Assembly (NCBI GenBank): GCA_944325085.1
Contig: CALUYT010000009.1
Coordinates: 1-63,812, forward strand
Reading direction: 5' to 3'
Length of the DNA: 63,812 nt
Source of the DNA: Candidatus Gastranaerophilales bacterium
GTDB taxonomy: Bacteria; Cyanobacteriota; Vampirovibrionia; Gastranaerophilales; Gastranaerophilaceae
Numbering within the stretch: the first letter of the stretch is position 1; each line of letters starts with the position of its first letter. Made by a program: the position numbers and the translations under genes. This document shows, in pieces, positions 58,458-63,114 of the stretch. The notes under the pieces were generated by a model, which saw only the letters and a list, made by a program, of their open reading frames with translations, had not been told where the DNA came from and made no database searches.

Positions 58458-58994
58458 ATGCAAATAAGAACAATTACCCAAAGTCAGCCAAATTTTGGTA
58501 TGGCATTTTTGAAACCTGATGATATGGAAGCTTTTACAAAATATGTTACTCATAATCGTAAAGCTTCAGTCGTAAAAAGAGGTATTGAACAGCTAAGACG
58601 TGAACAAAAAAATAATAAGCATTTTGATATCAAATATTTAGATAGTGATGAAATAATGCTTTGTCCAAAAACTAAGGATGCTGAAGCTGTAGCTACTGCC
58701 TTAATTTATAATAAAGAAGTTGGTGGTAGATTAACTAAAGTTCAAACAATTAGTAAATCAATAAATAAGGATTTAGATTCTGCTGAAAAAAGCGGTTCAA
58801 AGTTGAAATCGTTTGCAGCTATGGCCAAAGGATTATTTAAAGCTATAAAATTGCAAGTTATAAAAAAATTAAATCCTAAATATTCACTTCCTAAAAATTT
58901 AGTTTTAGCTGCAGATGATGCAACTGCATTGGAAAAAGCTGCAGAACAAAGAATTAAAAGACATGCACTTATCGAACAAGCGTTTAAAGACTAA
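58458..58994 (+). CDS. Lineage-specific protein, first of two tandem paralogs
   Basis: A 178-residue basic protein with AAGGAG upstream. It opens MQIRTITQSQPNFGMAFLKPDD, with the F-G motif at residues 13-14. It shares with the gene at 59148 the pattern P-x-F-G-M-A-F-x-K-P, then a helix, GI/GLRQ-type helix, NKHFDI(K/E)Y and a C-terminal helical part with LPKNL. No domain recognised. The shared pattern marks a duplicated family. A terminator lies between the two. Confidence 0.65.
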   Translation: MQIRTITQSQPNFGMAFLKPDDMEAFTKYVTHNRKASVVKRGIEQLRREQKNNKHFDIKYLDSDEIMLCPKTKDAEAVATALIYNKEVGGRLTKVQTISKSINKDLDSAEKSGSKLKSFAAMAKGLFKAIKLQVIKKLNPKYSLPKNLVLAADDATALEKAAEQRIKRHALIEQAFKD

Positions 58995-59147: not shown

Positions 59148-59717
59148 ATGCAAGTTAGAAATAATACCCCAGTTAGTCACCCCCGTTTTGGTATGGCTTT
59201 TATAAAACCGGAACCAGATGTTATGCCAAAATTAACAGAATATTTAACTAAAAAATCTAATATAAATGTTGCAGTTGAAGGTTTACGACAAGTTATATCT
59301 GATCAAGCTTCTAATAAGCACTTTGATATTGAATATATTCCAGTGAAAAATTCATTTAGAGTTATTCCAGTATCAGAAGAAGGTAAAAAGATGACAAATA
59401 ATCAGCCCAAGATATTTGAGATGTCAAAAGAACCAACTAAATTAGAAAAATTAAAAGAAGAAGTTCGATACAAATCTTCAGTATTAGCAAGAAATGGATA
59501 TAGCAAGATGGAAATTTTGCAATTTAGAGTAAAAACAGTATTCAATTTAGTAAGGGAATATTTAAAATGTGTAGCAAGCCCAATGAAAGAGCTACCAAAG
59601 AATTTGCAAGATGCTGTTGAATATGCAGAATCAAATGCAAATAGGATTGAAGAAGGTATATATAATAATAAACGAATAAGTTCATTATTTGGCTCAGATA
59701 TCAACCTCGAAAAATAA
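59148..59717 (+). CDS. Lineage-specific protein, second of two tandem paralogs
   Basis: A 189-residue paralog of the preceding gene product. It opens MQVRNNTPVSHPRFGMAFIKPEPD, with the F-G motif at residues 14-15, and repeats the NKHFDIEY segment (near 58) and the ELPKNLQDAVEYAE helix. Similarity is clear in the first 65 residues and near the C-terminus, weaker in between. It has its own AGAGGA ribosome site. It precedes the S10 operon promoter but a separate promoter at 59785 serves that operon. Confidence 0.65.
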   Translation: MQVRNNTPVSHPRFGMAFIKPEPDVMPKLTEYLTKKSNINVAVEGLRQVISDQASNKHFDIEYIPVKNSFRVIPVSEEGKKMTNNQPKIFEMSKEPTKLEKLKEEVRYKSSVLARNGYSKMEILQFRVKTVFNLVREYLKCVASPMKELPKNLQDAVEYAESNANRIEEGIYNNKRISSLFGSDINLEK

Positions 59718-59784
59718 AAAATGAAAGTGTAAAAATCATGTAAAAAAGATTGTTACAAAAGTAAACAAACATGAAAAAACACGG

Positions 59785-59813
59785 TTGACAGTGAGTTTTG
59801 TTTATCTTAATAT
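59785..59813 (+). promoter_or_regulatory. S10 operon promoter
   Basis: TTGACA (59785-59790), a 17-base spacer and TAATAT (59808-59813), with transcription expected near 59820. It is the only strong promoter seen before rpsJ. Confidence 0.75.
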
Positions 59814-59819
59814 GGATAT

Positions 59820-59931
59820 GCTTGAAGTATAGTAAGTAAAATATCCGAAATATTTGAAAAATAGCAAACTTCGGGCAAACAGAGAGAAATCTCTGGAGAT
59901 AGTAAGTACATAAAAAGAAAAAGGAATGCAA
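59820..59931 (+). promoter_or_regulatory. Structured rpsJ leader
   Basis: About 112 bases of untranslated leader. A perfect GAAA-tetraloop hairpin, CAGAGA-GAAA-TCTCTG, lies at 59880-59895. The motif AGTAAGTA occurs twice (59831 and 59901). It may control ribosomal protein synthesis. Confidence 0.45.
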
Positions 59932-60249
59932 ATGGCAAGTAGTACTAAGAAAAACAGAATCAGAGTTTGTTTGAAAGCATATGATCACAAACTAATTGAT
60001 GTATCTGCTGAAAAAATCGTAGAAACAGCAAAAAGAACAGACGCAAAAGTAGCTGGCCCTATTCCTTTACCTACAAAAAGACGTATATATTGTGTATTAC
60101 GTTCACCACACGTTGATAAAAAATCACGTGAACATTTCGAAATGAGAACACACAAACGTATTATCGATATATACGAACCAACTCAACAGACAATGGAAGC
60201 GTTACGTAGATTAGATTTACCAGCTGGAGTAGATATCGAAGCAAGATAG
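59932..60249 (+). CDS. rpsJ: 30S ribosomal protein S10
   Basis: A 105-residue S10 protein: [75 protein letters not shown] is unmistakable. I start at the ATG at 59932 (MASSTKK). An in-frame ATG at 59926 is only 2-3 bases after the AAAAAGG ribosome site. rpsJ directly heads the rplC-rplD-rplW-rplB series here, but a 228-base structured spacer separates it from rplC. Confidence 0.97.
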
Positions 60250-60477
60250 TTGCAAAGATACCGGCAAAGTGAAAATTGAATAAGCATTATGCATAAATAA
60301 TGTGATCTACTACCGCCCGGATTAAGTAAGCGAGCTTAATCACAGCGGCGAGGGAGGTGAAAGTCCTCCGAAGGTAAAAGGACAGTACAAAAGTAGCGCT
60401 CGCAAGAGAAAATGCAAACTCGGGAATAGATACCCAAAAGGTGATCTATGACCACGAGCGAGCTAGAAAGGTAGAAT
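60250..60477 (+). promoter_or_regulatory. Structured RNA element between rpsJ and rplC
   Basis: This 228-base spacer is clearly GC-richer than the genes around it and has no credible frame. Hairpins visible by eye are CATTAT/ATAATG (60285-60302), GATTAAG/CTTAATC (60320-60341) nested inside CCGC/GCGG (60313-60348), GGAGG/CCTCC (60353-60369) and TAGATACC/GGTGATCTA with one bulge (60427-60449). CTACT (60308) can pair with AGTAG (60391), and CTCGC with GCGAG near the end. No terminator-like T-run is present. It is a candidate for an autoregulatory ribosomal-protein element. Confidence 0.6.
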
Positions 60478-61113
60478 ATGACACTAGGTGTAATAGGAAA
60501 AAAAGTTGGAATGACTCAAATCTTTGATGAACAAGGTTTGGCAATTCCTGTAACAGTTATCAAAGTTGATGAAACTGTAGTAACACAAGTTAAAACAGTT
60601 GAAACAGACGGATATAATGCAATCCAAGTAGGTACTGTTGCAGCAAAAGAAAAACATTTGACAAAAGCTCAAATAGGTCATTTCAAGAAAAACAACTTAT
60701 CAAATTACAGACATCTACAAGAGTTCAGAGTAGAAAATCCACAAGATTACAAAGTTGGAGATAAAGTTGAACTATCAGTATTGGATAATGTAGAAAAAGT
60801 TGACGTAACAGGTAAATCAATAGGTAAAGGATTCCAAGGTACAGTAAAAAGATGGAATTTTGGAAGAGGACCTATGGCTCACGGTTCTAAAAACCACAGA
60901 GAACCTGGTTCAATCGGTGCAGGTACAACTCCTTCACGTGTTATCAAAGGTAAAAGAATGGCTGGTAACATGGGAAATGAAAGAGTTACTATTACAAAAT
61001 TAAAGTTAGTTAAAGTTGATTCAGCTAACGGATTAGTATTAGTAAAAGGATCAGTTCCAGGATGTGAAGGCAGATTGGTAACAATTGTACCAACAAGAAC
61101 AAAATGGAATTAG
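60478..61113 (+). CDS. rplC: 50S ribosomal protein L3
   Basis: A 211-residue L3. The N-terminal LGVIGKKVGMTQIFDEQGLAIPVTVIKVDETVVTQVKT and the conserved SIGKGFQGTVKRWNFGRGPMAHGSKNHREPGSIGAGTTPSRVIKGKRMAGNMG leave no doubt. AAAGG precedes the ATG. It is preceded by the structured 228-base spacer and followed by another of 106 bases. Confidence 0.98.
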   Translation: MTLGVIGKKVGMTQIFDEQGLAIPVTVIKVDETVVTQVKTVETDGYNAIQVGTVAAKEKHLTKAQIGHFKKNNLSNYRHLQEFRVENPQDYKVGDKVELSVLDNVEKVDVTGKSIGKGFQGTVKRWNFGRGPMAHGSKNHREPGSIGAGTTPSRVIKGKRMAGNMGNERVTITKLKLVKVDSANGLVLVKGSVPGCEGRLVTIVPTRTKWN

Positions 61114-61219
61114 TAAAAACCAGACGAACAGAAAAGTTTTAAAAATCTCGAGTTGCCATATAAAACGGCTTAAACCGAAAGGGGTAACAGGCAGTAGTAG
61201 AAAATAAGGAAAATTAGAA
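61114..61219 (+). promoter_or_regulatory. Structured spacer between rplC and rplD
   Basis: 106 bases without a gene. GTTGCC (61152-61157) can pair with GGTAAC (61183-61188), enclosing CGG/CCG (61166-61177) and an A-rich loop. The spacer is longer than is usual between rplC and rplD. It might be a second regulatory or processing site. It ends in a weak AAGGA ribosome site. Confidence 0.4.
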
Positions 61220-61846
61220 ATGTCAAAAGAAATATTAAGTACAAACGGAGAAAAATTAGGCGAAATTACACTAGAGAAAAGTGTATTTGGCGTAGAACCT
61301 AATATTCATGTAATGCACTTAGCATTAAGAAGACAATTAAATAATGCACGTCAAGGTTCAGCTTGTGCAAAAACAAGAGCAGAAGTAGCAGGCGGCGGTA
61401 AAAAACCTTGGAAACAAAAAGGAACTGGTAGAGCAAGAGCTGGTTCATTACGTTCTCCATTGTTTGCAGGTGGTGGTGTAATCTTTGGACCAAAACCAAG
61501 AAGTTACGCATTCAATATGCCACAAAAAGCAAGACAATTAGCATTAAAATCAGCATTGTCAGCTAGAGAAGCTCAAATTGTTGTAGTAAAAGACTTTTCA
61601 ACAATAGCAGAACCAAAAACAAAATTAATGGTTAGTGCATTAAAATCATTAAACGTAAGTGGTAAAGTTTTAATCGTAGCAAATACAAAAGCTGAAGAAA
61701 ACAAAAACTTAGAATTATCAGCAAGAAATATTCCAAGCGTAAAACTTTTATTACCAACAAACTTAAATGTGAAAGATTTATTGGAAGCTGATTTTGTTGT
61801 TATGACTGAATCTGCTGTAAATGAAATTACAGAAAGGTTACAATAA
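61220..61846 (+). CDS. rplD: 50S ribosomal protein L4
   Basis: A 208-residue L4. The loop KTRAEVAGGGKKPWKQKGTGRARAGSLRSPLFAGGGVIFGPKPRSYAFNMPQK (about 48-100) is the conserved exit-tunnel extension. In other bacteria L4 represses its own operon, which makes the structured spacers upstream interesting. The stop overlaps the rplW ATG (TAATG). Confidence 0.98.
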   Translation: MSKEILSTNGEKLGEITLEKSVFGVEPNIHVMHLALRRQLNNARQGSACAKTRAEVAGGGKKPWKQKGTGRARAGSLRSPLFAGGGVIFGPKPRSYAFNMPQKARQLALKSALSAREAQIVVVKDFSTIAEPKTKLMVSALKSLNVSGKVLIVANTKAEENKNLELSARNIPSVKLLLPTNLNVKDLLEADFVVMTESAVNEITERLQ

Positions 61847-62142: not shown

Positions 62143-62216
62143 GATATTACACCGCGGGGCGTATGATATAAGTCCCAATCAGGAAAACAAAAGCCAAAAA
62201 TAGGAGAAAATAAAAA

Positions 62217-63044: not shown

Positions 63045-63053
63045 ATAAGCTAA

Positions 63054-63080
63054 GGGGGAAAAGTTAATACTTACTCCCCC
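63054..63080 (+). promoter_or_regulatory. GC-rich hairpin between rplB and rpsS
   Basis: GGGGGA (63054-63059) pairs with TCCCCC (63075-63080) in the 70-base spacer. No T-run follows, so it is not a terminator. A role in RNA processing or stability is possible. Confidence 0.45.
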
Positions 63081-63114
63081 CAGCAAATTCACAAATAAGT
63101 AAAAGGAGAAATAA

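Follow-up and report, generated by a model that had tools for sequence, protein, structure and literature searches.

The S10 operon of Escherichia coli is controlled by ribosomal protein L4 through a leader upstream of rpsJ, which acts by both attenuation and translation, and domain I of 23S rRNA competes with this leader for L4 (PMC10931766). Regulatory RNA sites may also lie inside a ribosomal operon rather than at its start, as in the S8-controlled spc operon of E. coli (PMC10931766). A predicted L4 leader, its ligand assigned by precedent, precedes rplC-rplD-rplW-rplB in Archaeoglobi (Eckert and Weinberg 2020, PMC7247131). Candidate ribosomal leaders have also been described for Firmicutes, Clostridia among them, within or ahead of the S10 operon, and for Peptostreptococcaceae, ahead of the S10 gene (PMC7247131, PMC11109978). 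Eckert and Weinberg do not mention cyanobacteria in the main text of their survey of ribosomal-protein leaders (PMC7247131).

A structured spacer between rpsJ and rplC

The window analysed here is the whole 63,812-nt stretch of a Candidatus Gastranaerophilales contig (CALUYT010000009.1). Gastranaerophilales (Melainabacteria) are non-photosynthetic members of Cyanobacteriota. In the window, the spacer between the end of rpsJ (60249) and the start of rplC (60478) is exactly 228 nt long (60250-60477) and has no gene inside. Its GC content of 43.4% exceeds that of the window (28.2%), rpsJ (35.5%) and rplC (34.6%), and its predicted minimum free energy of -58.6 kcal/mol lies well below that of shuffled sequences (-44.7 +/- 4.2 kcal/mol; z = -3.31; 0/200 shuffles as good). 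Hairpins are predicted at 60284-60303, 60313-60348 and 60353-60369, together with a long one within 60413-60463. The sequence-only reading, which had described a GC-richer, multi-hairpin, non-coding spacer matching no known leader, is thereby confirmed on the first point, and it is borne out on the second by an Rfam 15 scan of the spacer, in which no family reached the gathering threshold; with E values up to 10, the sole match was a spurious lncRNA (E = 4). The longest closed open reading frame in the window's spacer has 9 codons, and reading frames across 101 family spacers are not longer than in shuffled sequence, which excludes the small conserved gene that would have spoken against a leader. 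The element occurs once in the window's genome. Taken with the comparisons below, the spacer is read here, with a probability of roughly 0.6, as a ribosomal-protein leader acting on rplC and the downstream genes, in which two helices, P1 and P2, form a switch and initiation is blocked by an operon protein, with L4 as the likeliest candidate. The features concerned are as follows.

59785-59813, + strand: promoter-like motif TTGACA-17-TAATAT ahead of rpsJ, where the operon transcript presumably begins (promoter scan; relatives)
about 59818-59877: second conserved structure, in the rpsJ 5'UTR (pattern comparison)
60271-60282, + strand: conserved A+U-rich segment GAAAAUUGAAUA, before the core (sequence comparison)
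60284-60303, + strand: hairpin P1 (60284-60290 with 60297-60303), predicted ground state (folding; pairing in relatives)
60301-60310, + strand: core helix P2, 5' strand UGUGA-U-CUAC (all complete family spacers; covariation)
60313-60348, + strand: variable hairpin inside P2, differing in sequence and length among relatives (folding; comparison)
60353-60369, + strand: T-loop-like hairpin GGAGG-UGAAAGU-CCUCC (loop consensus; consistent stem variation)
60371-60380, + strand: conserved unpaired segment AAGGUAAAAG, 3' of the T-loop hairpin (comparison)
60393-60406, + strand: core helix P2, 3' strand GUAG-CGC-UCGCA, then AG (all complete family spacers)
60413-60463, + strand: 3' subdomain closed by GC/GC (covariation in 23 relatives)
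60465-60471, + strand: Shine-Dalgarno region of rplC (AGAAAGG), directly 3' of the structure (sequence; kept in relatives)
60478-61113, + strand: rplC (ribosomal protein L3), first gene 3' of the leader (gene call; homologues in 134 family genomes)

Other long spacers in the operon separate rplC from rplD (106 nt, 61114-61219), rplW from rplB (74 nt, 62143-62216) and rplB from rpsS (70 nt, 63045-63114), the last containing a strong hairpin (-16.4 kcal/mol).

Conservation and covariation of the core helix

Spacers were sampled from 134 family genomes with rplC (60, then 40 more) and represent 39 genera. They are always long, from 94 nt upward, with one exception that is cut by a contig end. The core, UGUGA-W-CURY paired with RYAG-CNH-UYRCA, is present in all 100 complete rpsJ-rplC spacers, the window included, so that a lack of conservation in close relatives, the other outcome that would have spoken against a leader, is excluded as well. 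Five spacers, spotted by eye, differ solely in the internal loop, where CGC is replaced by CAA or CGA (GUAGCAAUCGCAAG or GUAGCGAUCGCAAG). Sequences for pair counting were chosen by a pattern of limited variation, within which "invariant" is to be understood, and only these five loop deviants were lost by it. Among 56 distinct sequences, 96% of P2 cells are standard pairs, and 30 cells are changed on both sides compared with 10 in shuffles. This covariation, which the sequence-only reading had proposed to look for in the spacers of related genomes, is significant, exceeding 500/500 shuffles and all slid controls; the shuffles ignore kinship, and the changes fall in different clades. Compensatory changes run from CUAC/GUAG through CUGC/GCAG to CUAU/AUAG, and from UGUGA/UCACA to UGUAA/UUACA and UGCGA/UCGCA. 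The spacer element is a conserved, cis-acting structured RNA found throughout the family. Before the core, an A+U-rich segment follows the pattern RAAAAUUKAAUA among window-like relatives almost without exception, and many distant relatives have (A)CAAUUUAAUA there. An AUG-UGA start-stop inside the core was rejected as a coding signal, as the helix explains these letters, no Shine-Dalgarno sequence precedes them and they are broken in UGCGA members.

Conservation could alternatively reflect DNA binding, with an internal rplC promoter in the spacer, and TTGAAA ... TATAAT does span the P1 hairpin in many window-like members. However, the spacing of these boxes varies and, at about 19, is long, such a -10 box is missing from distant members, a promoter scan of the spacer stays at chance level except for one weak site that overlaps the Shine-Dalgarno region of rplC, and covariation of base pairs points to RNA; an internal promoter is thus very improbable as the explanation.

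Distribution and origin of the element

A gapped core pattern was scanned over one genome per species, covering 84,980 bacterial and archaeal species. It yielded at least 113 loci with one match each, compared with about 0.03 chance matches expected by arithmetic estimate. Among the matches listed, rplC comes next after the element in 110, a contig end interrupts the locus in the other 3, and rpsJ lies just upstream of the core in 111 of the 113. A search with R1, a covariance model built on the trimmed core, gave 25 matches, which are no estimate of distribution; because of the long inserts this model searches poorly and misses even the window, and anchored extraction and the gapped pattern were used instead. 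Two metagenome-assembled contigs titled Clostridia and Acinetobacter (L255 and L279) carry the leader together with rplC genes 78-89% identical to that of the window, and these titles are probably wrong on account of that identity.

The spacer-by-spacer survey covered Gastranaerophilales and, from the rest of the class, 40 genomes of other families. None of these 40 genomes carries the core, whereas rpsJ was detected just upstream of rplC in 36 of them, mostly with a gap of 0-170 nt, which indicates that the gene linkage predates the element. The sequence-only reading had suggested an operon leader kept after two parts of the operon joined: its leader holds up, being conserved, covarying and placed just before rplC, but the joining history does not. 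On this comparative evidence, the element is a novelty of Gastranaerophilales, not something left over from a fusion of two operon segments.

Clade-specific modules and resemblance to 23S rRNA

Further modules accompany the core in some lineages. The T-loop hairpin and the 3' subdomain are found in the window's clade, not in all clades, and many members have no T-loop hairpin. In 45/45 sequences with a 7-nt U[GU] loop, the loop reads U-G-N-R-A-N-Y, with U1, A5 and Y7 always present and G2 in 44, and the stem pairs vary consistently among relatives. U-G-N-R-A-N-Y is the T-loop consensus. For the FMN riboswitch, T-loops reading UGAAA have been documented (PMC3764141). In the 3' subdomain of 23 close relatives, an internal loop of GAA opposite AAGUA carries the sequence signature of a bulged-G (sarcin-ricin) module, a module type that is often protein-bound (PMC7247131), and the flanking helices covary (21 cells changed on both sides compared with 6 in shuffles). 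The window itself has a divergent version lacking the GAA/AAGUA signature, so this bulged-G-like module is not required. In another clade (rpsJ-rplC spacers L042, L047, L048, L050, L053, L054, L056-L059, L061 and L062), a different conserved hairpin, YAGAGUUU ... AAACAAAG, replaces the T-loop hairpin, and the 3' strand reads AGCUCUCACA, which is also able to pair with an upstream GAGA.

The T-loop hairpin raises the question of rRNA mimicry, in which the leader would copy the L4 site in 23S domain I. Ribosomal-protein leaders often resemble the rRNA site of their protein, although they need not do so. Its loop, UGAAAGY, resembles the E. coli 23S hairpin at about 328 (GGG-UGACAGC-CCC), whose family counterpart, UGAUAGC, is one of a handful of such hairpins, and the competition of domain I with the S10 leader for L4 would fit. 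However, the resemblance is unspecific: other 23S hairpins fit equally well, among them one in the family with the loop UGAGAAU, which is also seen in leaders. The hairpin is, moreover, absent from many members, and covariance and position-weight-matrix (PWM) searches of the core against two family 23S genes from relatives, used because the window's assembly has no 23S gene of its own, and E. coli 23S gave no significant match. Mimicry of the L4 site is therefore considered improbable, and the T-loop resemblance is no more than a lead. Another candidate, in which UGUGAUCUA/GUAGCGCUC would copy a 23S helix (E. coli GGUGAUCUA at 681-689 and GGUAGCGCC at about 830), was rejected, since the two family 23S genes differ there, the E. 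coli segments are not known to pair with each other, and PWM and covariance searches found nothing significant. An exact 9-mer match, UGUGAACUG, near position 190 of the family's 23S did not reach significance against shuffles.

Two predicted, mutually exclusive folds

The 3' arm of P1 overlaps the 5' strand of P2 at 60301-60303, so that both helices compete for UGUG. Its upstream partner is GCAUUAU in the window's clade and CACAU in others. Over 59 relatives, UGUG is predicted to pair with the 45 nt upstream of it at a mean of 0.73, compared with 0.47 in shuffles; the competition is individually significant in 14 of the 59 sequences, and the claim thus rests on the ensemble, with a few members lacking P1. 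In 93 full spacers P1 dominates, with a predicted probability of 0.78, and forcing P2 costs a predicted median of 2.4 kcal/mol. In one member that changed UGUGA to UGUAA, compensation is seen in P2 (UUACA) and none in P1. P2 therefore covaries and yet is the predicted minority state, which suggests that something stabilises it. The Shine-Dalgarno region is predicted to be about 71% unpaired in both states, so repression would act through an adjoining bound protein and not through sequestration. In the minimum-free-energy fold, UCUACU of the window pairs with the Shine-Dalgarno region of rplC, an interaction that was rejected because it is not conserved.

Exclusive folds and T-loops also occur in riboswitches such as that for FMN (PMC3764141), and the leader could sense a small molecule or an RNA instead of a ribosomal protein. 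Among the matches listed, however, the element is linked to ribosomal-protein genes only, the usual setting of protein-sensing leaders, which makes a small-molecule riboswitch unlikely; sensing of anything other than a ribosomal protein is given marginally lower odds than the internal promoter.

Proposed mechanism and candidate ligand

Like known ribosomal-protein leaders, the element lies in an untranslated region before a ribosomal-protein gene (110 of the 113 matches listed) and has a structure backed by covariation. Location and conservation thus argue for a ribosomal-protein leader, from which protein binding and repression are expected. In a spacer of 94 nt and in those exceeding 300 nt alike, a few nucleotides separate the end of the structure from the Shine-Dalgarno sequence. 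No terminator-like site is predicted on the + strand in 59700-61300, which favours translational control over attenuation, and a similar promoter motif is found upstream of rpsJ in 69 of 105 relatives.

In the proposed model, one transcript from the promoter upstream of rpsJ would carry rpsJ, the leader, rplC, rplD, rplW, rplB and further genes. The leader RNA would form either P1, the predicted ground state, or the long-range P2, which encloses the T-loop hairpin in the window's clade. When the amount of an operon ribosomal protein, L4 being the likeliest, exceeds that of rRNA, the protein would bind and stabilise P2; the resulting complex, whose end adjoins the Shine-Dalgarno sequence, would block initiation at rplC, and genes 3' of rplC would perhaps be repressed too, by coupling.

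Control by L3 or L4, as the sequence-only reading suggested, is plausible, and the sequence itself singles out neither decisively. L4 is named because the published rule of ligand prediction by precedent points to it (PMC7247131) and because L4 controls the E. coli S10 operon. It is nevertheless given slightly less than even odds, with about one chance in four for L3 and one in five for another operon protein. The same leader may respond to L3, or to L2, L23 or L22, with L4 acting on a structure upstream of rpsJ, a scenario that is possible but held to be doubtful. The adjacent gene is rplC in all cases, but adjacency predicts ligands poorly in multi-gene operons (PMC7247131), and no established L3 leader was found in the literature consulted.

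A further consideration is the second conserved structure, AURCU-stem-UCCGAARUAU-AAUAGC-stem, which directly follows the promoter in the rpsJ 5'UTR; of 106 sequences, comprising the window and relatives, 37 match its pattern. Its outer stem changes in sequence with pairing mostly kept in relatives, and it matched nothing in Rfam. Lying at the position of the E. coli L4 leader, it is a candidate S10-operon leader, and the operon may have two leaders. This weakens the case for L4 at the rplC leader, as L4 may act on the structure before rpsJ. A bolder and tentative interpretation is that the rplC leader is bistable, its covarying helix being the less stable state that forms only on ribosomal-protein binding, and that the second leader is unrelated, so that two independent feedback sites would have evolved in the S10 operon of one family. 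Farther upstream of rpsJ, 58458-58994 and 59148-59717 encode a tandem pair of similar predicted proteins (178 and 189 aa), sharing the motifs FGMAF.KP near the start and NKHFDI mid-protein.

Comparison with known systems

No published description of this structured RNA was found, and the mechanism and ligand put forward here are putative. If the preferred reading, an operon-protein leader with a P1/P2 switch, is true, the element adds a new ribosomal leader, carried by gut-dwelling, non-photosynthetic relatives of cyanobacteria. Its compact core, over a hundred natural variants and clear origin on the tree would suit the study of how ribosomal feedback sites arise lineage by lineage, and it is a good case for asking whether ribosomal leaders switch between two folds.

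Among known systems, the E. coli L4 leader is likewise a structured leader in the same ribosomal operon, and feedback by an operon protein is expected here too. However, it lies before rpsJ, whereas the Gastranaerophilales element follows rpsJ, a separation made by position, and its attenuation contrasts with the lack of a predicted + strand terminator here. The candidate leaders of Firmicutes and Peptostreptococcaceae belong to other lineages, and their structures, compared through the Rfam scan only, gave no match. The E. coli spc operon offers a parallel in the internal position of its regulatory site, with no homology claimed. The Archaeoglobi L4 leader, although from an archaeal lineage and likened by its published description, occupies the same place before rplC-rplD-rplW-rplB.
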